Source: Aurantiacibacter sediminis (lineage in GTDB: Bacteria; Pseudomonadota; Alphaproteobacteria; Sphingomonadales; Sphingomonadaceae). Taken from it: a stretch of 64,000 bases of DNA. Positions within the stretch are counted from its first letter, which is position 1. The number at the start of each line of letters is the position of its first letter. Location of the stretch: the NCBI RefSeq assembly GCF_016019885.1, contig NZ_JAEANY010000004.1, positions 83,054 through 147,053 on the forward strand. Direction: 5' to 3'. A program made the position numbers and the translations under genes. A model generated the notes under the pieces. The model had not been told where the DNA came from. It ran no database searches and saw only the letters and a program-made list of their open reading frames with translations. This document shows, in pieces, positions 21,137 through 33,175 of this stretch.

Positions 21137-21156
21137 CCACGCGGCAAAACCCAAAG

Positions 21157-22524
21157 TTAGTCGCAGAAGCTGATGCGGTAATTGCCGCTGGAATCGATCT
21201 GCGGGACCACGCGGCTCATTTCGCGCAAATCATCGCCGACGCGCACTTGGTCCACACCCACGCCGCGCACCGGGCGTTCGGGTCCACGGTGCCAATTGTC
21301 ACCAATATCCGCGTAATACAGCTCCGATCCATTGACGATGATCGCATCGCGGCGGTCCGAGAACGCGATGGCATTGTCATGTCCGGGAGCAAAGGTCCAA
21401 GCCCCGTTCCCGTTCATTCGCTGCCCATTCACCACGAGACTGAAGGCGATATTCTTCGTGACATTACAGCGATTGACCACCCGCAATTCAGCACGGCGAC
21501 CTTCCCCGCCAACGCCGCCGAAATGGATCCACGGCACATATCCCACCCCGCCATCATCAAGCGGAACCTCCGCGAAATCTCCGCCGACCGTGCCCGATAC
21601 GGTGGTGAGCGTGCTGACCGGGATCGTGTCGGTGACGGCGCTGCCATAATCGGGTGCAGAGTGAACGGTGGCGGGCTCAAGCGTGAAATAGTCATCCGCT
21701 GTCGAGCTATCGAGCGATGGCAGGTTGTCCTGCGCGAGCGCACTGCGCTGGACGTAGGCCTGCCGTCCGGCAATCCGGGCCCAATCGGGTGCGCCATCGA
21801 CCGACACCACCTCAACATAATCGCCTCTGGATAAGGCGCCGATCTCTCCCGCGCCGTCGCTTGGAGAATCGAAGAGAGCGACATTCCGCCGCGCGAAGGA
21901 AGGATCGCCGCTTTCTGCCGCGACCTCTTGAGCCGCGTCGTGATTGTTGGTCAGGCCACCAAACGCATCGTCCTGCGGCACGAACCCGCCGCCTTCGTCA
22001 TCGCCCATTTGCGACATCGCGAAAAACCCGATTCCCACGATGGCGACAGCGATCCCGACGGGGACCCAGCGCCCCTTGTTTTTCGGCGGCGGCGCATGGA
22101 TGGGCTCTTCAGGCTGTACGCGCGACGGCTCATGCCTGTCTTCCCGCACCACCTCTTCAGGCGCGTCATGATCTTGTCCCATGAAGGGTGGAACTTCCTC
22201 AACTGGCCGTCTGGCAGTTTCGGGTTCTACTGGCGGCGAAGCGGGCGTCGAAGTGGGTGCAGACGGAGGCGGTGGAGGCGGAGGAGGCGGTGCTGCAGGC
22301 TCTGGCGCGGGGCCGATAATCTCATCGAACAAACCAATCAGAGGCGGGCATTCGCCAGCCGGCATCGTGGCCTTCCGGCCGGGACCTGCTTCATAATCGA
22401 TGATTGTATCGCGGGTGATATCCTGCCGCTCAATGGCGGCGCGCCACTGCTTTTCGGTCGATAGCCGCCGTTTGCGACCACCGGTCGTCGCGATAATCTT
22501 GGCGCTGGAAAAATCGTCTGCCAC
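21157..22524 (-). CDS. Membrane protein with shared N-terminal domain and two periplasmic SH3b-like domains
   Basis: A 455-residue protein of no recognised family overall. Residues 1-71 form the N-terminal domain also found in the genes at 22576 and 32319 (GGRKRRLSTEKQWRAAI ... LFDEIIGP). A proline-rich linker with a run of nine prolines follows (77-150), then one membrane helix (153-172). The periplasmic part has two SH3b-like segments (about 212-263 and 281-337) and a C-terminal domain (about 345-455) starting with RVVNRCNVTKNI. It is the last gene of the minus-strand operon and converges on ccmB with a 20-bp gap. Confidence 0.75.
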   Translation of the reverse strand: MADDFSSAKIIATTGGRKRRLSTEKQWRAAIERQDITRDTIIDYEAGPGRKATMPAGECPPLIGLFDEIIGPAPEPAAPPPPPPPPPSAPTSTPASPPVEPETARRPVEEVPPFMGQDHDAPEEVVREDRHEPSRVQPEEPIHAPPPKNKGRWVPVGIAVAIVGIGFFAMSQMGDDEGGGFVPQDDAFGGLTNNHDAAQEVAAESGDPSFARRNVALFDSPSDGAGEIGALSRGDYVEVVSVDGAPDWARIAGRQAYVQRSALAQDNLPSLDSSTADDYFTLEPATVHSAPDYGSAVTDTIPVSTLTTVSGTVGGDFAEVPLDDGGVGYVPWIHFGGVGGEGRRAELRVVNRCNVTKNIAFSLVVNGQRMNGNGAWTFAPGHDNAIAFSDRRDAIIVNGSELYYADIGDNWHRGPERPVRGVGVDQVRVGDDLREMSRVVPQIDSSGNYRISFCD

Positions 22525-22575
22525 TTGTTCACATCCTGCCTGTCCGCACGGTTTGCCTGGAGATGACGGCCTGCG

Positions 22576-23640
22576 TCAATTCATCCGGTAGGTGATGGCT
22601 GTGGCGTATGTCCCGCGTGTGGGGGAGCCATCTGCATTGAGCGCGGGGTTGAAACGGGCATAGCGCCGCATACCGTCGCAAGCCGCATCGTCCAAAGTGC
22701 TGGACCCGCTGGAAGAGGTGACCGAACAGGTCGCCACGCGGCCATTGCTCCCGATAACGACGCTGACGCCGACGGATCCTTCTTCACCTGCCCGAAGGGC
22801 GCGAGACGGATAATTGTTGGCAATCTGCCGCGCCCAGCGTCCCTGATTGTCAGGCTGGGCCGGCCGGGCGAGCGACCGCGCGGGCGCGCCTGTCTTGTCA
22901 GGGGCCGGAGCAACACTAGACGCGAGTGTGGGCGTAGGTGTCGGCGTCGGACTGGGCGTAGCACGCCTTTCGCGAGCGGCATCGTCACTGGCGCTAGCAG
23001 AGGGCGTTGGCGTAGGCGCGATCTCTTCGGCGGGCAATTCTACCGCCGCATCCTCTTCCACTTCATCCGGAATTTCTTCGAGTGCAGCATCGGCGTCCGC
23101 CATCAGACCGTCGTCATATTGGCTGAAATTCGGCTCGGTATCGTCACCGCCGCCCATGGACAGAGCGCCTATCGCGACAATTGCGATCGCCCCCCCAATC
23201 CACAAGATGGCGGCGCGGGATGACTTTGGCTCTTCAGCAACAATTGGCTGATAGCTCGTTGGGCCAGACGCTGCAGAAGAAGCGACCGGAGCGGCAGCAG
23301 CAGCCGCGCCTGGCGCCGCTTTTTCAGCCTTACTCTCCGATCGAGCCGCCGGTGTCGCCGGGACAGGCTTAGGCTGCGCTGGCGTGGTCTTTGGGGATTC
23401 GGCCGCTGGTTTGGCCACAGGCGCAGCCGCAGGGCCGACGATGCTATCGAAAAGCGGCGCGAGCTCGGGGCAATCTCCGGCCACCGTTTCGACCGGGCCC
23501 TTGCCGGGCGCCTCGTAAGTTACAGGCGTGTCACGCTCCAATTCGCCATTTGTGATGGCCGCGCGCCATTGCTTCGGCGTCGAAAGCCTCCGCATGCGTC
23601 CGCCAATCTGGGCGGTAATCTTGGGATTGGGACCTGCCAC
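22576..23640 (-). CDS. Membrane protein with shared N-terminal domain and TonB C-terminal domain
   Basis: A 354-residue protein. Residues 1-70 match the shared N-terminal domain (GGRMRRLSTPKQWRAAI ... LFDSIVGP). After a Pro/Ala/Lys linker there is one membrane helix (143-162), an acidic and then Thr/Pro-rich periplasmic linker including TPSPTPTPTPT, and a TonB C-terminal domain (about 265-354) with EGSVGVSVVIGSNGRV and a characteristic YRMN end. Unlike true TonB, the N-terminus is a folded cytoplasmic domain. No ExbBD pair is nearby. It probably links the complex to another envelope component. Confidence 0.8.
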   Translation of the reverse strand: MAGPNPKITAQIGGRMRRLSTPKQWRAAITNGELERDTPVTYEAPGKGPVETVAGDCPELAPLFDSIVGPAAAPVAKPAAESPKTTPAQPKPVPATPAARSESKAEKAAPGAAAAAAPVASSAASGPTSYQPIVAEEPKSSRAAILWIGGAIAIVAIGALSMGGGDDTEPNFSQYDDGLMADADAALEEIPDEVEEDAAVELPAEEIAPTPTPSASASDDAARERRATPSPTPTPTPTLASSVAPAPDKTGAPARSLARPAQPDNQGRWARQIANNYPSRALRAGEEGSVGVSVVIGSNGRVATCSVTSSSGSSTLDDAACDGMRRYARFNPALNADGSPTRGTYATAITYRMN

Positions 23641-23658
23641 GGTTTACTCGCTCAGCTT

Positions 23659-24834
23659 TCAGGACAAGCCGCTGATCGCGCCTTTGGTCTTGAGCTTCCA
23701 CTCATTGTTCGAATCACGCTGCAATACGGCGGGGCGAATAACGGACAGCTTGTCCCCCCGCTGCATGTCGAAATGGTGCGCCAGCGGATGGTCCGATGCC
23801 TCCTGCCGATATTTCTGCCACGATTTTTTCAGGTTGAAGCCCGGAAGAAGCAGCGCCTCATTGCTGTTATTCGGATCGGGAACGACCCAGAATCGATCGA
23901 TATCGCTTTTGATCAGCGTGGTAATATCGGTGCTGCGCTCATTGGTGTAATATTGCGCCTTCACACTTTCCGCGAGCCGGGTGAAATCGCCCGGCTTGGT
24001 GGTGGAATTGAATTTGTTCACCAGATCGTCTGCATTGTGCGCGCTCGCCGCAGTTGGCGCCCTTGCGGCCGGTTCTGCTGGGCGGCTCTCAGGCTGAGGA
24101 GCGGGTCTCTCCGGCGGTGGCGGCGCGCCGCGATGCGGGTCTTCCGGGTCCTGCACACGATCATTCTTGCGGTCGTATACATTGCTCGAAGCTGCCGCAG
24201 CGGAGGTTGAGGAGGCAGGGGTATTGGCAGCGCTGTGGCCTCCCGCTTCCAGCTCCTGGACGCGCTTTCGCAGCGCATCGCGCTCTTTGCGCAGATCTTC
24301 AATCTGTCGTTGATAATCGGCGAGCACTTCGCTCGGATCCTGCACTTTTCCATAGGGAGGCATTGGCTCGTTCCCCTTTATCTTGACCGGCGAATTCTTG
24401 CGTGCGCCCCGTCCATCGTCGCTGGCAAATTTTCGGCGCAGCCAGAAAATGATCGGGATGGCCGCCAAGATGGCGAGCGCGAGGATGAGCAATTCCACAT
24501 GCTCGCGGACCATCGCCATGGCTGACGTATCTTCGGACGCAGGATCAGTCTCAAGCATTTCCGGCGTAAAGGTTTCGTCTCCGGCAGGCGGCTCTGCAGT
24601 CACAGGCAAAGCAGGTTCGCCCGGCTGTTGCGGCGATCCGGGCGCATTTGCATTCGGACTGCTCACCTCTGCGGGTGCAGCCTCAATCTCCGGCTGAGGA
24701 GCCGCCTCGGGCGCGGTGACGGTCCCGGTCGAAGTATCCTGCGCCGCGGCAGGTGAAAGTGCGAAACCCGCTGCAGCGATCGAAGCAAGGCCGATGGCGC
24801 GAAAGCCGCGAAGCAACGCCTGCGCCCTCACCAT
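23659..24834 (-). CDS. Bitopic membrane protein with signal peptide, coiled coil and unique C-terminal domain
   Basis: I do not recognise the family of this 391-residue protein. It has a Sec signal peptide (about 1-31, ending AAAQ), a Pro/Glu/Ala-rich periplasmic segment, a membrane helix (114-132), then a cytoplasmic part with a coiled coil (168-197, QRQIEDLRKERDALRKRVQE), a Pro-rich spacer and a ~125-residue C-terminal domain (266-390) containing DRFWVVPDPNN and LLLPGFNLKKSWQKY. Its ATG overlaps the end of the large ATPase gene by 7 nt. It could tether the ATPase or the tubulin-like protein to the membrane. Confidence 0.7.
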   Translation of the reverse strand: MVRAQALLRGFRAIGLASIAAAGFALSPAAAQDTSTGTVTAPEAAPQPEIEAAPAEVSSPNANAPGSPQQPGEPALPVTAEPPAGDETFTPEMLETDPASEDTSAMAMVREHVELLILALAILAAIPIIFWLRRKFASDDGRGARKNSPVKIKGNEPMPPYGKVQDPSEVLADYQRQIEDLRKERDALRKRVQELEAGGHSAANTPASSTSAAAASSNVYDRKNDRVQDPEDPHRGAPPPPERPAPQPESRPAEPAARAPTAASAHNADDLVNKFNSTTKPGDFTRLAESVKAQYYTNERSTDITTLIKSDIDRFWVVPDPNNSNEALLLPGFNLKKSWQKYRQEASDHPLAHHFDMQRGDKLSVIRPAVLQRDSNNEWKLKTKGAISGLS

Positions 24835-27800
24835 TTCGGGTCCTCATTCTGCACCGTCAACAGGTTCTGCCGTTCATCAACATTGCGCGCCAGCATATGC
24901 ACCAGCATCCGCAATTTGGAGATGAAGGGTGGTTCGATTTCCTGCGTTTCGCCGGTCTCGTCATCGCCCGATTGTTCCAGCGCCGCGAGTGCGCGGGAGA
25001 ATTCCCGGTCCACGCTGTTGCGGATGTCGTTCCGCGCCGCGCCATTTTTAGAATCGATCTTGATCTTCAGGCCCGTCCGCTTCGCGAGAAGGTCAAGGAA
25101 GCGATCGAATTCGTGATCGGTGACATCATCCAGCCGCAGGCCTTCGGGAAGGTCTTCCACCGCAAAATCGCTGCCGAAAGTCTTCTGCTCGCCATTGGAG
25201 AGAATGACTGCCTCACCCAGAGGCGTGGCGGTGTTGCGCGCATGGCGTTTACGGTCTGCGCGCGTGCCGCAAAGCATGCCATGCGCCACTTCGTGCTTGG
25301 GATGGGTGGAGAAAAGATCGCCCACGCGCGGGTCACTCGGCTCGGTGATGCGAGCATTTTCCTCGCCCTCCGCAGGCTCTGCATGGACAACATCGGTGAT
25401 CATCCGTGCCAGCTGGCCGAGCAGGCTGTATTCGTCTTCCGCGCGCCCGAAATGACTGAAGAAGCTCGACCCGCGTCCGGCGAATGCCAATGTCAGCGAA
25501 TTGATATCGCTATCGTTCAGCAGCCCCTTGCTCTTCAGGCTTCGCAGCACCAGTCCGGTGTAGTAAAACAGCCCTGCCAGAGCGAGCGTCGCGGTGTTGG
25601 TGAGGCCCACACCCTGCGGCTCATCGCTGAACATCGGATAACTGTCCGCAAATGTATCGTTGAAGTCCGGCTGGCTGATGTAAAGCTCGACAAAATGTTT
25701 CAGCGAAGCGTTCTGGCCGAAGCGTTCGAGCACGTCGCGCATCGATGATGCGGAGCTGCGGAATTCATCGAATACAGCGATGTTCTGCGACAGGAATTGG
25801 GTGAAGAAATCTCCGCCCGCGATTTTAAAGGAGCTGCGCCAGATTGTCTCTTCGCGATGATAGATCGCGATTTCCGTCGTGCCGCCGCCGATATCGAACA
25901 TGGTGATTAGCCTGCCGGCTTTGCCGACATGCTCCGGCCCATCGACGAAGAAGCGCAATGCTGCAGCCCCTTCGGTCTCGAAATCGACATAGTCTTTGAT
26001 ATTCGGCTTCTTCCCGATGACTGGCTCCATAATGCCGGTCCATGCGAGCTTTACCGCCTCCTGAAACACGTTGGCGTCCCTGGAACTCCAGGCCTGCGGA
26101 TAAGAAAAATGCCACTTGATCTTTTCCGGCATGACTTCGCGCGCCATGGCCTCGACCGTGCTCATCATGATGATCTGGCGGATGAAGCGCCGAACCATCC
26201 ATTTGATCTCAGGATCCTTGCTCCACTTCAGGTCGAAAGCGAGCTCCTTCTTCTCCTCCCGCTCGACGGCATAGCTGAACTTGTCCGCCACTTCCGGCAT
26301 GAAGAAGATATTGTCTGTGATACCGTGATAATTGGAATTGCCCACATCCCCGCTGGAATTGCCGCCGCGAAGGTCGAAGCTGCGGCGATACATGACTGTC
26401 GGGAAAGGCGAGATGACTTCTGTTGCCGGGAAAAACGGAACGCAGTCGTAGTGAAACTGGTCCTCATCCGCCAAGCGGCTGTGGATGGGCCGCGACACGC
26501 GCGGTTTGAATACCATCCGCTCCGTCTTCGAGCCTGACTTGAAATAGACAACCGTATTCGTCGTGCCGAAATCGACCGCAATATCCATCGTTCCCGGCCC
26601 TTGCGCGCTGCGCCGTTCGGGCAGCAGTATGCAGCCGGCGGGCATGATGTCGCCGCCATCGTCAGGCTTCATGCCGAAGAACAGGTAATCCGCGCCCTGG
26701 CCAAGGATGTGCTGTTCGCCAATCGCATCCTCGATATCGGTGAAACGGAAACGGTGGGCGATAAGCTTGCCGTCCTGACCTTTCAGTTCCCCTGAATTGC
26801 CTTGGAAGAATTGCTCCATCCGCTCGAACACCAGATCGTCATTCGATCCCAGCGACATGAGCAGCGCCATTGCCTCTGTCCGGCGGTTCTTGGACCGAAG
26901 TGCGACCGTATCGGCAAGGCTCTGCATGGATGCAGCAAAGCGCGGCGCCATTTCATAATCGGAATTGAAGCTGTAGCGCATGAAATTCCACGGCCAGTTC
27001 TTCATGCCGACGTCGGGCCACAGGATGATATCATCCGGCACGCTTTCCTCTGCCACCATGGTCTGCTTGTCATAAAGCTTGGAAATCGTGTGGATCGGCG
27101 CGCGCGATGATGAATCGGACGGTATCAGATCGAGTGTCAAGCGCACTTCAAAGGCATCGCCGCGATCATCGATCGATAGCTGGTGGCTGATCCGATCGCG
27201 CGAAATCAGGAACAGCACCAGCGGGCTGATCGGCAGGGTGAAGTTCTCCCAGCGGGGCCCGTGCTCTTCCACCGGGCCATCATTAGCGAGCTTCACCAGC
27301 TTTTCAGTAAACAGCTGATCGGGCGTGATGACCATATAGCCGTCGCGTTCAGCATCGCGCTGCAGCGCGTCGCGATTGCCGCCCTGATCGACGGTGCCGA
27401 GCATGTATTTGCTATAGAGCCGCACGTCCTGCGGCGCCTTCTGCAAAGTTTTCTTGGCGATATCGGGATCGATCAGGATCAGGCCGCGCAGTTTGCCTTG
27501 CTCATCATCGCTCCGCGCGAAAACGCCATTGTCCGGCAGGACTTTGAGCTCGCATTCCGAAATCGCACCTTCGACCTCGTCGCCCGGTGCGGGCGCGCTG
27601 CCGAGCACTTCGTAAAATGGATAAGGCAGGTCTTCGGAGAAGCCTTCGTAATTGCCTGCAAAAGCGCGCGCAGAGCCATCGATCTTTTCTTTGCAGGCCT
27701 TGCCGAAATCGCCGATCTCCGTGCGAATTTCATGCGCCTTGTGCGAGATATTCGGGCCATCGAGGGCTTTGAAAATATTGATCAGATAGGCGTATAGCGC

Positions 27801-28415
27801 GACCCACTGTTCCTGCGGAATATCATTGTAATTGCACGGATCGCGAAGGCCATCGCGCAGCCACGGCACGCCTTCCATCTGCAGATTGCGTGCACCGCGA
27901 GCAGGCGCCACGAGGCAATTGGGGACCATCAGGCCGATGGCATTGGTCTCGCCCACATCGAATTCATCTTCACCCGTCGTCCGGATCGTAATGACGCCGG
28001 TGCGCGTCCAATCGAGGTTCTGGTTCAGCGTGTCCTTCGGGGCAAGCCGCCGCAGCACGCTGCGGAACTTCGCATTGCCAACGCCCGTCTGGTCGAGATC
28101 GATCGTCTGCACGCGCAGGATGAAAGTGTTGGTGTAGAAATGCCGCAGCGCCAGCAGCGCAAGCAGGCCGCGCCACTGATCGCGCGCATCGGCTTTCGCG
28201 ATATGGCCCTTGGTGGTCAGCGCCTGGTTGAACAGCAGCGGGCGCGCCCATGGATCGGGCAGCGACTTAAGGCCATCGATCTCGACATCGTCATTCGACA
28301 GTTCGAGCGAGCTCGCCATGTCATTCAGGGCACCCGATTTCATCCACACGCCGGAAGCCGTTGCGGGCGGATAATCCTCGAAATTGAGTTTGGGGAGGTT
28401 GTAATAATGCGCCAT
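24828..28415 (-). CDS. Large protein with C-terminal actin/Hsp70-superfamily ATPase domain
   Basis: A 1195-residue soluble protein. Residues 1 to about 600 have no motif I recognise. From residue 610 an actin/Hsp70-fold ATPase begins: phosphate-1 MDIAVDFGTTNTVVYF (610-625), phosphate-2 MFDIGGGTTEIAIY (839-852) and an adenosine-like segment LTLAFAGRGSSFF (about 973-985). It is much larger than DnaK or MreB. SrfB-type virulence-associated ATPases are one possible relative, not confirmed here. The start follows AGGGGAACAGAAC. It is preceded by the tubulin-like gene with a 12-bp gap. Confidence 0.8.
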   Translation of the reverse strand: MAHYYNLPKLNFEDYPPATASGVWMKSGALNDMASSLELSNDDVEIDGLKSLPDPWARPLLFNQALTTKGHIAKADARDQWRGLLALLALRHFYTNTFILRVQTIDLDQTGVGNAKFRSVLRRLAPKDTLNQNLDWTRTGVITIRTTGEDEFDVGETNAIGLMVPNCLVAPARGARNLQMEGVPWLRDGLRDPCNYNDIPQEQWVALYAYLINIFKALDGPNISHKAHEIRTEIGDFGKACKEKIDGSARAFAGNYEGFSEDLPYPFYEVLGSAPAPGDEVEGAISECELKVLPDNGVFARSDDEQGKLRGLILIDPDIAKKTLQKAPQDVRLYSKYMLGTVDQGGNRDALQRDAERDGYMVITPDQLFTEKLVKLANDGPVEEHGPRWENFTLPISPLVLFLISRDRISHQLSIDDRGDAFEVRLTLDLIPSDSSSRAPIHTISKLYDKQTMVAEESVPDDIILWPDVGMKNWPWNFMRYSFNSDYEMAPRFAASMQSLADTVALRSKNRRTEAMALLMSLGSNDDLVFERMEQFFQGNSGELKGQDGKLIAHRFRFTDIEDAIGEQHILGQGADYLFFGMKPDDGGDIMPAGCILLPERRSAQGPGTMDIAVDFGTTNTVVYFKSGSKTERMVFKPRVSRPIHSRLADEDQFHYDCVPFFPATEVISPFPTVMYRRSFDLRGGNSSGDVGNSNYHGITDNIFFMPEVADKFSYAVEREEKKELAFDLKWSKDPEIKWMVRRFIRQIIMMSTVEAMAREVMPEKIKWHFSYPQAWSSRDANVFQEAVKLAWTGIMEPVIGKKPNIKDYVDFETEGAAALRFFVDGPEHVGKAGRLITMFDIGGGTTEIAIYHREETIWRSSFKIAGGDFFTQFLSQNIAVFDEFRSSASSMRDVLERFGQNASLKHFVELYISQPDFNDTFADSYPMFSDEPQGVGLTNTATLALAGLFYYTGLVLRSLKSKGLLNDSDINSLTLAFAGRGSSFFSHFGRAEDEYSLLGQLARMITDVVHAEPAEGEENARITEPSDPRVGDLFSTHPKHEVAHGMLCGTRADRKRHARNTATPLGEAVILSNGEQKTFGSDFAVEDLPEGLRLDDVTDHEFDRFLDLLAKRTGLKIKIDSKNGAARNDIRNSVDREFSRALAALEQSGDDETGETQEIEPPFISKLRMLVHMLARNVDERQNLLTVQNEDPKW

Positions 28416-28427
28416 GTTCTGTTCCCC

Positions 28428-30044
28428 TTATCCTTCGCTCGCCATGATCGGGCGGATGTCGCTGAATTCGTATAGCGCAGCGATGAAGCGGCCCATATTC
28501 TTGTGGTCGCCTTCCACTTCCAGCTGGGTCAAATTGTCCGAGAGGTCGACGACATTGGGCATGTCTGCATCCTTTTCGTCATCGAATTTCGTTGCGACCG
28601 ACGTGTAAAGCTGCTCGTACTCCGGGTAATTCAAGCCCGGTCGGACATGCGGATCGAGGTCCAGTCGGCGATAGTCTATTTCTTCGACCAGCGGATAGCC
28701 GACGCGCCACAGTTCGAAAGAATTGTCCGCGTCGCGGCGTGAATAGGCGTCGATCGACGCGCACCAGCCAACAGCGTGGTCAAGCGCATCCTCAAAATTG
28801 TTGAGCGCCTGCGAAGGGCTGTTCTCATCCCAATTGATGCGATCAAGCTGCTGCGTTTTATACCACTGATCGCGGCGCACTTCTTTGCGCTTGGACGGAT
28901 CATCGATCTGCGGCTTCCAGAACTTGAATGCGACAGCAAACCGCAGGAAGTTGGACACGATTTCGTGCAGCCGCTTGCGGTCTTCATCATTGCCGGAAAT
29001 CGCTGGGATATCGTCCCAATCGATACGGTGATAATCGCCGCGCGCGGACACGGTGATGTTCTGGGTCACCTCTTCGTCCGGCAAGCGCTGCGTTTCGAAG
29101 AAGCGATAGCCGGCCGATGCGGCGAGGAATTCCGGCAGCAGGGCCGGATTACGCTGCGTACCCGAACCCTTTGAGTGGACGTCGATAGAGAAAAACGGGT
29201 TCCAACCGATAAGGTAGAGCTGGTCGAAAATGTGCTCGCCATCTTCGGCCTGACCCTTATCACCCAGCATGTGCTGGTAGTGGCGCAGCGCCCCGCGGGC
29301 CTGCACCTGCTGCTCATGCGCGCGGGCGACATTCTGGTCCTGGTCTTCATCGGGATCGGGAAATCCGAAATAGGGGAGCATCAATATGCCGCCAATATCG
29401 ACATTGCGGGTGATGCCTTCCTCGCGGAGGCGATCGCGGATAATGCGCGCGATAGTGGGGAAGCCAGCTGCGCCGGTCCCGCCGAACACGGATCCGGCAA
29501 GCATGATGCGGCAATTGCCCTGCATGCCTGCGCTTTTAATTGCCTCTGTGATGGCGTCCCAGAAAGGATTGCGCTCTTCAGCGCGCAGAGTCATCGCCGC
29601 TGCACCGATATGCGGGCGACCGCGATAGCCCTGCCCCAGATCGAGGTTTTGCTCCTCGCTTTCCTCATCCCCGCCGGTTTCAAACAGCGCATCGAAAAGG
29701 TGCTTGTCTTCATTCATCGGGCCGAACACACCGGCGAGCGTTGCACCTGCTTTCTCGTCCGGGATCCACAGACCATCATCACCATCGAGCGGTTCGATCG
29801 CTGTCTTGAACAGTGGGCATTCGTCAGTACCGTCAATCGTGTGCGCGGAGCCGCCCCGCCAGGAATTGCGCGCACGGCGATAGGCTTCAAACACGGTGCG
29901 TGCACGGTTGAGGTTGCCGTTGCTTTCGTCCTGATCGACAAAGCCGACTTTCATCTCATTGGGCCCGACGCCCATGGCGGCGAGATTGATCACCGCTTCC
30001 ACGACCTTTGCGCCGGTACCGCCAACGCCAATGATGATATTCAT
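28428..30044 (-). CDS. Tubulin-like protein
   Basis: A 538-residue soluble protein. It opens with MNIIIGVGGTGAKVVEAVIN (1-20), the FtsZ/tubulin-style first nucleotide loop, has acidic residues at FVDQDESN (35-42), and carries LAGSVFGGTGAAGFP (182-196), a counterpart of the tubulin/FtsZ signature GGGTGTG that binds GTP phosphates. This fits the bacterial tubulin-like family catalogued as Tubulin_2 rather than FtsZ, whose T7 loop I cannot identify. The gene lies between a four-helix membrane protein and the actin-fold ATPase. GTPase activity and polymerisation are inferences. Confidence 0.75.
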   Translation of the reverse strand: MNIIIGVGGTGAKVVEAVINLAAMGVGPNEMKVGFVDQDESNGNLNRARTVFEAYRRARNSWRGGSAHTIDGTDECPLFKTAIEPLDGDDGLWIPDEKAGATLAGVFGPMNEDKHLFDALFETGGDEESEEQNLDLGQGYRGRPHIGAAAMTLRAEERNPFWDAITEAIKSAGMQGNCRIMLAGSVFGGTGAAGFPTIARIIRDRLREEGITRNVDIGGILMLPYFGFPDPDEDQDQNVARAHEQQVQARGALRHYQHMLGDKGQAEDGEHIFDQLYLIGWNPFFSIDVHSKGSGTQRNPALLPEFLAASAGYRFFETQRLPDEEVTQNITVSARGDYHRIDWDDIPAISGNDEDRKRLHEIVSNFLRFAVAFKFWKPQIDDPSKRKEVRRDQWYKTQQLDRINWDENSPSQALNNFEDALDHAVGWCASIDAYSRRDADNSFELWRVGYPLVEEIDYRRLDLDPHVRPGLNYPEYEQLYTSVATKFDDEKDADMPNVVDLSDNLTQLEVEGDHKNMGRFIAALYEFSDIRPIMASEG

Positions 30045-30109
30045 ATTCTCTCGTCCTTCAGAAGGATGTCATGCGCGCGGGGCTTGCGCCGCGCAGCTCA
30101 GCCAAAAAT

Positions 30110-30685
30110 TCAGCCGCCGGGGATGGACGGCTTCATTTTCTCAGGCGTGGAAATGCGCGTGCCGAGCCAGAAGGTGATCAGCCACACAACGACCATCATT
30201 GCCGGGAATCCCCAGCCGCGCGCCGGTGCCAATACCTGGCCCCAATTGCCGAAATAGCTGGAAAAATGCGCGAGCACCGCAAAGCCGATAGTCACGATCA
30301 CGATGGTGAGAGCATGGCCGAACCACGCACCGCGCATGGAGCGGAAACCCGCAGGGTCGCCCACCTTCTCTCCGCGCGCCACGATCTGGAACACGAACAC
30401 AAGGCCGATCACCAGCACGGCAAGCCCGGTCAGCGCATGCCAGAAAGCGATATCGCCCTGCGTGTCATCGACAAGCGATTCCAGCGAACGCTGCACCTGC
30501 GTCAAACATTCCTGCGCCTGGTTGCCCGAAAAGCCGCCGCCAGCGCCTTCGCAATTGGCGAGGCGCTCCGTCTCTAGTGTGGGATCGAGCGCATCGGTGG
30601 ACCCGTTCACGAAAAACAGGATCGCGCCAAACACCAGCATCACAGCCAGCCAGAGCCCTGCAAATTTGAACATTGATTGCGCCAT
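30110..30685 (-). CDS. Four-helix membrane protein of the tubulin/actin-fold operon
   Basis: A 191-residue integral membrane protein with four hydrophobic segments (about 7-26, 81-102, 121-144 and 158-177). The first loop (about 28-80) would face the periplasm and contains two cysteines (Cys45 and Cys60) that could form a disulfide. The C-terminus is short and ends PSIPGG. I recognise no family. The start follows GGGGGAAGTAAC. It lies 49 bp after the vWA-like gene and 65 bp before the tubulin-like gene. Confidence 0.75.
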   Translation of the reverse strand: MAQSMFKFAGLWLAVMLVFGAILFFVNGSTDALDPTLETERLANCEGAGGGFSGNQAQECLTQVQRSLESLVDDTQGDIAFWHALTGLAVLVIGLVFVFQIVARGEKVGDPAGFRSMRGAWFGHALTIVIVTIGFAVLAHFSSYFGNWGQVLAPARGWGFPAMMVVVWLITFWLGTRISTPEKMKPSIPGG

Positions 30686-30734
30686 TAGCGTTACTTCCCC
30701 CTTGTTCGCGCCGAGATGCGACGCGGCGTTTCAA

Positions 30735-32240
30735 CTATTCGCTTTGAATGATCACCTGTGTGGCTGATCGTTCGATTTCTTCGCGGCCCGGTATCATCAG
30801 CTCTGCCAGCAATATGCGGCGGAGCGGCTCAAGGCCGGGAACACCGGTGCGCTGAGCGCCCGACGATGCGCGCAGACGCTGCAGCAACTGAGAATTGTCC
30901 ATGGACCATTCGGTCATCCAAGCAGCCGCCGGATGATCGTTCACGATACCGCGCTGGCCGGCAACCACCTGCACCAGATAGGTGCCTTCACGGTCCGCTC
31001 CCAGCTGATTGAGCACATCCTGCGTCAGCGTGTAATTGACCGTTTGTCCGCTAACCGAGCCACCGCCGGGAGGCAGCGCCCCAACGCTGGTCCACGCCGC
31101 ACCGCTCTCACAGCCTTCGGCATCGAGCATGGTTGGATCGAGCCGCCAGACCCAGCCTTCCCACAACGGCTGGTTCCCAATTACTTCAAAATCGGCAACG
31201 CCTGCATCGGCCTCGACACTCAGTAACAGACCGCCTTCATCGGCGGCATCGGCGCGCTCGGCATCGAACACGTAGGATTGGATGCCTTCGGCCCCCGGAA
31301 TGCGGGTCTGGATCGGGCGCGCGATAAAGCCGGTCGAAACGCCCGACAGCGCAGGCTCGCCGAGCACAATGGAACCTGCTTCAAGCCCGAACAGTGCAAA
31401 GGAGCGGTCCGAAACGGCCGTGTCCGCGCTGAAAGGCGTGATTTCGGCAGTGTCGAGATATTCGAAATAAGTCCGCACCTGATAAGGCGTACCGATCAGC
31501 AGGATCACCAGCGGACGATCGGATATGGAAGCAGAAACCGCTTCGGTGCCGACAAAAATCCGGCCGTTGAAAGGCACGCGCACGGCAAGAATGCCGACCG
31601 ACAGGCCCTCTTCGACGATCATCGTGCGCAGGCTGCCGCCGACCGATGCCTCGAATGCGTCGATAGCCTCGCGGTCATCGAGCATTAGATCGGTGACGAT
31701 GACAGACAGCGCGCCCGAACCTTCACTCTCGCGCGAATGCAAGACCCATTCGAGCAGGTCGGCAATACGCGTCTCGCTGTCCGTATATATGGCGGGGCGG
31801 GCGAAGGCAGCGGGATCCTCGAACTGTTCGGGCGCTTCAGGCTCTGCGCGATTGAAGCGATATTCGCCAAATTTGTAATAGTCGACTTCGCCACCGCCGG
31901 CGCTGTAGAGGCTGCTGCGGGTGAAATTACGCGTTAGCGATGCGAGATTGCCGATGGCGTTGGGGCTGTTTGCAACATAACCCGCCATGCCGCCCGACAC
32001 GTCGAAATAGAGATCCACATCGCCCGGATTACGGCGAATGGCGGAAGACGCTGCCCGATAGTTTTCCACCGGCGCTGGCAGGCATGTGGCGACATTGTCG
32101 AGCGAGACTTCCGGTTCTTTCGTGAAAATGCGGTAGGCGATGATCGCCCCCACAAACAGCACCACAATTCCCCCTGCGACTGCCGCGATGCGCCAGTCAA
32201 AACCCTTTTCAGCCCGTCTCGCCAATATTCCCCCCGACAC
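30735..32240 (-). CDS. Membrane-anchored periplasmic protein with degenerate vWA-like domain
   Basis: A 501-residue protein with a short cytoplasmic N-terminus, one membrane helix (about 17-39) and a large periplasmic part. DVDLYFDVSGGMAGYV (74-89) resembles the DxSGSM MIDAS motif of vWA domains but with Gly replacing the second Ser, and SVIVTDLMLDD (179-189) fits the second metal-ligand strand. IYTDSETRIADLLE (151-164) could supply the MIDAS threonine. The C-terminal ~250 residues are beta-rich and unrecognised. The start is GTG at 32240, with no ATG alternative nearby. It is the first gene of the operon. Confidence 0.72.
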   Translation of the reverse strand: MSGGILARRAEKGFDWRIAAVAGGIVVLFVGAIIAYRIFTKEPEVSLDNVATCLPAPVENYRAASSAIRRNPGDVDLYFDVSGGMAGYVANSPNAIGNLASLTRNFTRSSLYSAGGGEVDYYKFGEYRFNRAEPEAPEQFEDPAAFARPAIYTDSETRIADLLEWVLHSRESEGSGALSVIVTDLMLDDREAIDAFEASVGGSLRTMIVEEGLSVGILAVRVPFNGRIFVGTEAVSASISDRPLVILLIGTPYQVRTYFEYLDTAEITPFSADTAVSDRSFALFGLEAGSIVLGEPALSGVSTGFIARPIQTRIPGAEGIQSYVFDAERADAADEGGLLLSVEADAGVADFEVIGNQPLWEGWVWRLDPTMLDAEGCESGAAWTSVGALPPGGGSVSGQTVNYTLTQDVLNQLGADREGTYLVQVVAGQRGIVNDHPAAAWMTEWSMDNSQLLQRLRASSGAQRTGVPGLEPLRRILLAELMIPGREEIERSATQVIIQSE

Positions 32241-32318
32241 TTGTCGCGATAATCAATGGCTCTACTGTTAACGTAAATCAATGATTCGGAAAGCCCCCGT
32301 GAGGATGAGAATTTTATA
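32241..32318. promoter_or_regulatory. Divergent promoter region of the tubulin/actin-fold cluster
   Basis: This 78-bp, locally AT-rich gap separates the GTG of the seven-gene minus-strand operon from the ATG of the plus-strand DUF805 gene, so it should carry both promoters. An 8-bp direct repeat, AATCAATG, occurs at 32251-32258 and 32276-32283 (25 bp apart), a possible regulator site. GAGGA at 32301-32305 and TGAGAA just before the plus-strand start may serve as its ribosome site. I could not define -35/-10 boxes with confidence. Confidence 0.4.
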
Positions 32319-33167
32319 ATGGCACAGGTCGAAAACAACTTGACCGTCACCGCTCGCGTCGGCGGCAGGCATCGCCGGCTCGCGACCGAGAAGCAATTGC
32401 GCGCCGCGATTGCCAAAGGCGAGCTTGATCGCAAGAGCGAAATCAGTGTCGAGCGCCCGGGTGCCGAAAAGCAGGTGATGGTGGCGGAAAACGTGCCCGA
32501 ACTCGCCGGACTCTTCGACGAGATGCTTGGCGCAAAGCCTGCTCCGCAACAGCCCGCGCCGGAAGTGACGCAGCAAGACGAGCAGCCACACCGGAGTGCG
32601 CCAGTGAATGCCGAAAGCGACCCTGCGCCCTCCCTCGCCACCGCGCCGATCCAGCGCAGCCAGCCACCGGCGAGCGACCGGACATTGTTCGAACGCGCGG
32701 AGGCCGGGGGAGCGATCAACCGCAACTCCTCTCGCCCAAATTATCGCGGCGGGGCGAGCGAGCCCTCACCTGTCGATTACATGGTGATGCCGCTTAAACG
32801 TTATGCCGAGTTCCATGGCCGTTCGAGCCGCAGCGAATATTGGTGGTTTCAGCTCGCCGTGATCGTGGCGATGTTCGGGCTTGTGGTTGTGGCTGGCGGG
32901 ATCATCGGCGAAGGCAGTTTCGGTATCATAGCGCTCGCATGGCTCGGCGTCCTGATACCGAGCTTTGCAGTCACCGTGCGGCGCCTGCACGATAGCGGCC
33001 TGTCGGGAACGTGGCTCATCGGCCTAATCATCGGATCGATAATCCCCATCGTGAATTTCCTGACGATAATCGTCTGGTTCATCCTGATGGTGCTGCCGGG
33101 AAACCAGGGCCAAAACCGCTTCGGCCCCGATCCTCTCGACCCGGCCAATGCAGAGGCGTTCAGCTGA
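32319..33167 (+). CDS. Shared N-terminal domain fused to DUF805 membrane domain
   Basis: A 282-residue protein. Residues 1-71 are the same domain seen at 21157 and 22576 (GGRHRRLATEKQLRAAI ... LFDEMLGA). A polar, Pro-rich linker (72-150) follows. The C-terminal part is a clear DUF805 domain: PLKRYAEFHGRSSRSEYWWF (158-177), hydrophobic segments at about 179-195, 202-218 and 232-260, VTVRRLHDSGLSGTW (218-232) and NRFGPDPL. It is divergent from the operon but linked to it by this domain, so probably part of the same system. Confidence 0.85.
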   Translation: MAQVENNLTVTARVGGRHRRLATEKQLRAAIAKGELDRKSEISVERPGAEKQVMVAENVPELAGLFDEMLGAKPAPQQPAPEVTQQDEQPHRSAPVNAESDPAPSLATAPIQRSQPPASDRTLFERAEAGGAINRNSSRPNYRGGASEPSPVDYMVMPLKRYAEFHGRSSRSEYWWFQLAVIVAMFGLVVVAGGIIGEGSFGIIALAWLGVLIPSFAVTVRRLHDSGLSGTWLIGLIIGSIIPIVNFLTIIVWFILMVLPGNQGQNRFGPDPLDPANAEAFS

Positions 33168-33175
33168 ACTGGACG

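Follow-up and report, generated by a model that had tools for sequence, protein, structure and literature searches.

In bacteria, the main known case of a tubulin relative acting together with an actin relative is that of FtsZ and FtsA, and the locus described here raises the question of what a tubulin-like protein other than FtsZ does beside an actin-fold protein in a single operon. The locus lies in a window of 64,000 nucleotides (the whole stretch of DNA analysed) from Aurantiacibacter sediminis. The reading favoured below, to which we give a probability of roughly 0.55, is that the two proteins make up one membrane-anchored assembly acting across the cell envelope and not in division. Their genes belong to a run of seven on the same strand, the tubulin-like gene being third, in the order vWA-like, small membrane, tubulin-like, actin-like, membrane/coiled-coil, TonB_C and SH3; the first five are separated by 49, 65 and 12 nt and then by an overlap of 7 nt. 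The features, in window coordinates, are as follows.

28428..30044, minus strand: tubulin-like NTPase-fold protein, 538 aa, by Tubulin_2 Pfam match and predicted structure
24828..28415, minus strand: actin-fold protein, 1195 aa, 12 nt from the tubulin-like gene
30735..32240, minus strand: vWA-like protein, 501 aa, by alignment of 16 homologues
30110..30685, minus strand: small membrane protein of 191 aa, for which hydropathy gives as many as four hydrophobic segments
23659..24834, minus strand: membrane and coiled-coil-like protein by hydropathy, 391 aa, overlapping the actin-like gene by 7 nt
22576..23640, minus strand: accessory membrane protein, 354 aa, Pfam TonB_C at 69 bits, hydrophobic segment 144-162
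21157..22524, minus strand: accessory membrane protein with bacterial SH3, 455 aa, SH3_3 at 40.9 bits, hydrophobic segment 153-171
32319..33167, plus strand: accessory membrane protein, DUF805 at 90.8 bits, divergent from the operon
21137..33175, no strand: the whole cassette of ~12 kb, missing as a block from congeneric genomes

The reading frame that the earlier note had placed at 28428-30044 is real and lies on the minus strand, running for 538 codons from an ATG at 30044, preceded by a ribosome-binding-like GGACGAG, to a stop at 28428. Both glycine-rich nucleotide loops of the Tubulin/FtsZ superfamily are present where that note had seen them, T1 (residues 6-13, GVGGTG) within GVGGTGAKVVEA at residues 6-17, and T4 (FGGTGA) as SVFGGTGAAGFP at residues 185-196. 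The likeness noted there to the tubulin/FtsZ loops is not a matter of chance, the glycines being invariant in 21/21 aligned sequences; the full set of invariant loop positions is G8, G9, G11, G188, G189, T190, G191 and A192, in an alignment of the window's protein and 20 others (without L009, L010, L050 and L054). A third tubulin-type element, absent from the earlier note, is the T3-like GYRGRPHIGAA (residues 139-149), which a profile comparison pairs with the FtsZ stretch GLGAG..PEVG..A at E 0.002 and a probability of only 13.8. The protein passes Pfam Tubulin_2 (45.3 bits, cut-off 27) and falls below Pfam Tubulin, PF00091 (21.4 bits, cut-off 33). When the Tubulin_2 model was run against the genomes of five relatives, two exceeded the cut-off and three (G466, G695, G696) gave no match, more distant members lying under Pfam detection; one further genome, G489, holds a single Tubulin_2 match below the cut-off. 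The tubulin-like profile drew two low-level matches from PDB sequences, neither significant.

Structure prediction agrees with the motifs. An AlphaFold2 model from 14 input sequences (mean pLDDT 79.3, pTM 0.88) has as its best match by VIA-align, a rescoring of Foldseek's list, the FtsZ of S. aureus (Z 16.4, rmsd 3.2, 201 residues), a match spanning approximately residues 1-355, and all 50 VIA-align matches listed are by their titles FtsZ, CetZ, PhuZ or tubulin/microtubule structures. Foldseek itself ranked CetZ first at E 4e-4, with a loose superposition (TM-scores 0.19 and 0.27, rmsd 12.6). The earlier note had named a predicted fold that is not tubulin-like as the outcome that would refute it; the fold predicted is tubulin-like, with Z reaching 16.4. 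A Rossmann dehydrogenase or ThiF fold was considered and rejected: ThiF matches were weak (E 0.1 to 0.3), and Rossmann/ThiF structures were absent among the 50 matches listed by Foldseek and by VIA-align.

That the protein is not FtsZ, also claimed at the outset, holds on several counts. The genome encodes a true FtsZ, its sole match over the PF00091 cut-off (176.7 bits), beyond the window and ~34 kb away on the same contig; the tubulin-like protein's own PF00091 score is under the cut-off; and it has no recognised FtsZ-type T7 motif. The companion statement that the gene is not near division genes stands for the surrounding reading frames listed, but has to be read with FtsZ ~34 kb off on the same contig. 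The absence of an FtsZ T7 loop is sustained at the sequence level, as no NxDxxD-type motif was seen in the 21-row alignment, where, past residue 260, just two columns have an acidic residue in 70% or more of the rows, E305 (21/21) and D345 (18/21), the latter within a W-x-D-L-P motif. With the T7 loop unrecognisable, a classical filament-activated GTPase becomes doubtful. Against a profile of 30 FtsZ sequences the T3-T4 stretch alone aligned. Three canonical Tubulin_2 proteins aligned over residues 165-319 with probability 95 and E 3e-8, and by this profile evidence the protein is a divergent, short branch of the Tubulin_2/FtsZl1 family.

The partner encoded 12 nt downstream is a much larger protein, in which an N-terminal part of ~600 aa without an assigned fold precedes an actin/Hsp70-type domain at ~607-1060 carrying both phosphate motifs (DFGTTNT, 615-621; DIGGGTT, 841-847). 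Its profile, built from 14 homologues of which two are damaged or truncated, matched an MreB chain at E 2.4e-8, the match covering 33 profile positions in the neighbourhood of the second phosphate motif. The structural model (pTM 0.54) matched FtsA best (7q6i_D, Z 17.2, rmsd 3.1, 265 aligned, model residues 609-1053), and FtsA, DnaK, MamK and MreB are near-tied within ~1 Z unit. The MreB profile match and the FtsA structure match together support the earlier identification of an actin-fold neighbour. In Pfam the protein falls below the MreB_Mbl cut-off (21.9 bits, cut-off 27) and has no SrfB match at E 1. The predicted actin fold is accordingly well supported, unlike any preference for a filament over a chaperone or the reverse. 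In two acidobacterial loci (L027, 11650-14400, and L028, 16724-19444) there is a further actin-like protein, shorter than the first and rich in cysteine at its beginning; that of L028, 3' of the pair, scores 34.5 bits in Pfam HSP70, over the cut-off of 20.6, and an SrfB match at 24.6 bits lies just under its cut-off of 27.1.

The association of the two genes is more constant than the earlier note had supposed, each of the 25 loci found via the tubulin-like protein having an actin-like gene downstream of it on the same strand, in addition to one natural fusion. These loci were gathered by the tubulin-like protein alone and without regard to adjacency, the fused G466 being kept apart. They came from the window's order (6/296 genomes), plasmids (six records, three used), genome contigs (13 loci), viral contigs (one locus), the window's phylum (3/398 genomes: the window's own, G096 and G466) and the phylum of Terracidiphilus (7/247 genomes with a tubulin-like match); L017, L018, L020 and L021, being duplicates of L008 to L011, add nothing to the count. 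The profiles were made from 18 of the 25 loci. Genome contigs yielded no loci with a single tubulin-like protein as query and 13 with the alignment as query. Spacing within the pair is at most 86 nt, or overlapping, in 23/25 loci, and 1,214 nt as called in L050 and L054. Carriers belong to the Pseudomonadota, Acidobacteriota, Cyanobacteriota and Bacteroidota. Regular expressions found the first actin phosphate motif (D.G[TS][TSG].T) in 24/25 neighbouring actin-like proteins and the second (D[IV]GGG[TS][TS]) in 19/25, and T1 and T4 in 19/25 and 20/25 tubulin-like proteins, the misses coming from a group of acidobacterial outliers and from a few genes that are divergent or damaged.

Pairwise tubulin-like and actin-like distances correlate at r = 0.986 over 22 loci (the short actin-like reading frames of L024, L026 and L048 being excluded), a value reached in 0/2000 permutations, the best of which gave 0.475; much of this correlation could stem from shared descent of the hosts. 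The tubulin tree gives good support to the window's sphingomonad clade (7 rows) and to the Caulobacteraceae (2 rows), its deepest forks being weak; alignment A5 leaves out L024 and L026, with their frameshifted and truncated genes. One contig of a viral collection (L033, IMGVR_UViG_3300034171_000222) carries vWA, short reading frame, tubulin and actin genes in that order, and a search of 50,697 phage records gave no match. Near the pair of L048 (13186-18001) lie reading frames that, judged from their starts, are protein-kinase-like and DnaK-like, kinases being common in FtsZl1 operons as well.

In one genome the pair is a single gene. In G466, of the window's phylum and with completeness 100, a minus-strand reading frame of 1766 aa (locus L053) joins the two parts. 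Its residues 2-320 match the tubulin-like profile at E 2.4e-17, and three stretches lying between residues 1015 and 1590 match the actin-like profile at E 9.2e-16, E-values given for a database of 1000. It retains GVGGSG, FGGTGSG, DFGTSNT and DVGGGTTD, and its Pfam matches are weak, Hsp70 (13.9 bits) and Tubulin_2 (11.8 bits) both lying under their cut-offs. Upstream is a 209-aa reading frame with hydrophobic stretches, and downstream, in the next same-strand region, a vWA-profile match; a longer antisense reading frame overlies the fused gene. The fused form is known only from this genome, the sole full match among 299 of its order, with weak matches (E ~3e-4) in G524 and G1058. In L012 (10582-10588) a lone stop codon divides the tubulin-like gene from an actin-like gene in the same frame, a single step short of such a fusion.

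The genes around the pair encode envelope-type proteins. The vWA-like protein has one N-terminal hydrophobic anchor, a MIDAS-like DVSGGM and a VTD with invariant D184 in 16 homologues, and is presumably periplasmic; Pfam gave it no match at E 1, and its profile met an integrin I domain at a non-significant E of 0.22. A vWA-profile match precedes the pair on the same strand in 22/25 loci, that of L048 being weak and partial; the exceptions are L013, where it is on the opposite strand, and L019 and L026, where it is absent from stretches that start close to the tubulin-like gene. The small membrane protein has profile matches in near relatives only, and several other loci have short reading frames at its position, whose membrane character was judged by eye from the sequence. 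Just 3' of the pair, a coiled-coil-like profile match occurs in 15/18 loci, with L015 at E 6e-3 only; this count weighs little, since the profile also catches accessory proteins sharing a common stretch. About 124 residues of the window's coiled-coil protein reappear in a 573-aa SH3 accessory protein of L008.

Parts of the TonB_C and SH3 kinds usually function in the periplasm. The two accessory proteins that carry them have one strong hydrophobic segment each, and the DUF805 protein has several. All three share an N-terminal module, GxRxRRLxTxKQxRAAI, without a Pfam match of its own, which we presume to be reminiscent of GYF_2 domains, and to which short BLAST matches occur in other clusters. 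Proteins of the same kinds stand beside the pair elsewhere (TonB_C in L012, SH3_3 in L008 and L022, DUF805 in L011 and L012). Pfam recognised no kinase, P-loop GTPase or integrase among the eight cassette proteins.

The cassette is rare, being carried by 1/25 genomes of the genus and 6/296 of the order, with copies of the system on cyanobacterial plasmids. In seven of eight congeneric stretches read about the right flank, the left and right flanking genes stand no more than ~4.4 kb apart, too close for ~12 kb, and in two (L109, L110) they adjoin directly; L107, the eighth, carries other cargo at this place. Adjoining flanks in congeners imply that the cassette arrived as a single insert or was lost as one. 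Its G+C content of 0.597 is close to the 0.619 and 0.606 of its flanks. In L107 (10914-19008), from the close congener G002, the flanking gene is bordered by an M23 peptidase gene, beyond which come genes of a Tad pilus (RcpC/CpaB, secretin, TadE/G); this would make the site a possible hotspot for genes of surface structures.

These observations can be combined into a mechanism. The tubulin-like protein and the actin-fold protein, whose gene lies 12 nt 3' of its own, would be dedicated partners and would form one cytoplasmic, nucleotide-driven assembly, as FtsZ does with FtsA. Tethering to the inner membrane would fall to the coiled-coil membrane protein and to the small membrane protein, and from there the assembly would act through the envelope upon the vWA-like protein as well as TonB_C and SH3 proteins; the TonB_C and SH3 parts, with the anchored vWA-like protein, point to a machine across the envelope with its NTPases inside. 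Its job would most likely be to remodel or power a surface or envelope structure, in adhesion, motility or transport, and not to divide the cell. The impaired phototaxis of mutants in the likely Synechocystis counterpart, described below, also counts in favour of this account. For the pair we thus infer a physical complex, polymerisation, use of GTP and ATP, and an envelope function. The literature searched held no biochemical report of polymerisation or GTP use for any member of the tubulin-like branch.

The strongest competitor, which we consider somewhat unlikely, makes the tubulin-like protein a non-polymerising GTP switch or scaffold and the actin-fold protein an Hsp70-like remodeller or chaperone of a membrane complex. 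The unrecognisable T7 loop would suit such a switch, and a chaperone-like role is made possible by the near-tie of the structural matches together with the modest pTM, the partner being tied with DnaK and BiP and Foldseek placing Hsp70 chains first; the HSP70 match of the second actin-like protein of L028 points the same way. Yet the sequence-profile search was led by MreB and not by Hsp70, the filament-forming FtsA, MamK and MreB score equally with DnaK, and we know of no dedicated tubulin-like partner of Hsp70. Considerably less probable is a defence or conflict system, the least favoured of all the readings: patchy, portable occurrence, with plasmid copies, few carriers in genus and order and a block absent in congeners, is what such a system would display, but the eight cassette proteins have no PADLOC match at E 1, and their Pfam matches include no recognisable effector domain.

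A system that assists type IV pilus motility, the suggestion made for Synechocystis, is doubtful too, if slightly less so than defence. PMC9880817 describes insertion mutants of sll0445, sll0446 and sll0447 with impaired phototaxis, and association of the three proteins with the pilus proteins Slr2015 and Slr2018. The seven genes sll0443 to sll0449 are predicted to be transcribed as a unit, with a putative CRP binding site (PMC2633013), and PMC12313861 lists Sll0445 and Sll0446 as deregulated in a comFB mutant. The same mutants, however, showed altered photosystem II fluorescence (PMC9880817, same passages), so that the effect on motility may be indirect. Moreover, PilT exceeds its cut-off in only 7/16 carrier genomes, with weaker matches in 16/16, and the best match in the window's genome reaches 59.8 bits against a cut-off of 319.1; PilT-driven type IVa pili therefore cannot be the general function. 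In a lexA-mutant RNA-seq table (the part of PMC4759255 available), sll0443-sll0445 and sll0448 are several-fold higher in the second column of each pair, hinting at LexA-linked control of the likely Synechocystis counterpart.

Weighed against these, a membrane-anchored tubulin-actin assembly acting across the envelope remains our preferred account. A bolder form of it, which we advance tentatively and rate short of an even chance, is that the cassette represents a second, division-independent bacterial tubulin-actin cytoskeleton: an obligate unit of a tubulin-like GTPase and a giant actin-like ATPase, a single protein in one species, that is anchored in the inner membrane, drives a machine spanning the envelope and travels as a portable cassette through at least four phyla. 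If it is indeed a second conserved pair, one with no part in division, its natural fusion and small operon would make it a tractable system for learning how two filament folds cooperate, and part of the Tubulin_2 family would gain a concrete role; in those parts of the literature covered, Tubulin_2 function amounts to a proposed part in membrane remodelling and a single set of mutants affected in motility. No description of a tubulin-actin pair outside Synechocystis was found in the literature searched, supplements aside, nor any of the wider operon or the fusion; the tubulin family and the Synechocystis trio are already in print.

Set beside known systems, the pair shares with FtsZ-FtsA a tubulin fold and an actin-fold partner, FtsA being that partner's top structural match, though tied. 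It departs from it in that the genome has a separate FtsZ, the T7 loop is unrecognisable, the partner has 1195 aa with ~600 aa of extra N-terminal sequence, and the neighbours are envelope-type proteins with no division genes. CetZ, the best Foldseek match (E 4e-4), and PhuZ have the nucleotide-binding fold in common with the window's protein, the alignments ending at about residue 357; for neither do we know of an actin-like operon partner.

The FtsZ-like 1 (FtsZl1) family, Pfam Tubulin_2 PF13809, was described by Makarova and Koonin in 2010 (PMC2875224). The window's branch has in common with it a Tubulin_2 score over the cut-off and a T6-H7 and T7 region that is not confidently identifiable. 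Most FtsZl1 operons include a vWA-domain protein, and the vWA-type protein of the window's operon has vWA-like motifs. The branch is shorter, at ~520 aa against 1050-1530 aa in three canonical Tubulin_2 loci. Most FtsZl1 members have a long coiled coil and a helical C-terminal domain (PMC2875224); the helices of the 538-aa model past its nucleotide domain are at most 29 residues long. Unlike FtsZl1 operons, the cassette has no kinase or P-loop GTPase match, and an actin-fold partner, not found in the portions of PMC2875224 consulted, accompanies the window's branch. The three canonical loci gave no actin-like profile match at E 0.01, and one (L062) has a vWA-profile match just upstream at E 3.2e-6. 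In FtsZl2, T6, H7 and T7 are conserved and neighbours are not; the window's protein differs, no T7 motif having been seen in it and its neighbours being strongly conserved.

There is a likeness in layout to Synechocystis sll0443-sll0449, which shares the gene order tubulin-actin-coiled coil and in which Sll0445 is assigned Tubulin_2, Sll0446 FtsA and Sll0447 DivIC (PMC9880817, in part). A homologous Picosynechococcus plasmid cluster, L014, has a similar layout of seven genes, agreeing with that unit in their number and in the order of their kinds, and the homologues in L013 and L014 give weak FtsA and DivIC Pfam matches below the cut-offs. From this layout and these matches, sll0445-sll0447 are likely the counterpart of the cassette, the orthology resting on gene order and domain labels; the Synechocystis cluster has been described in one organism and is tied to phototaxis and photosystems (PMC9880817).
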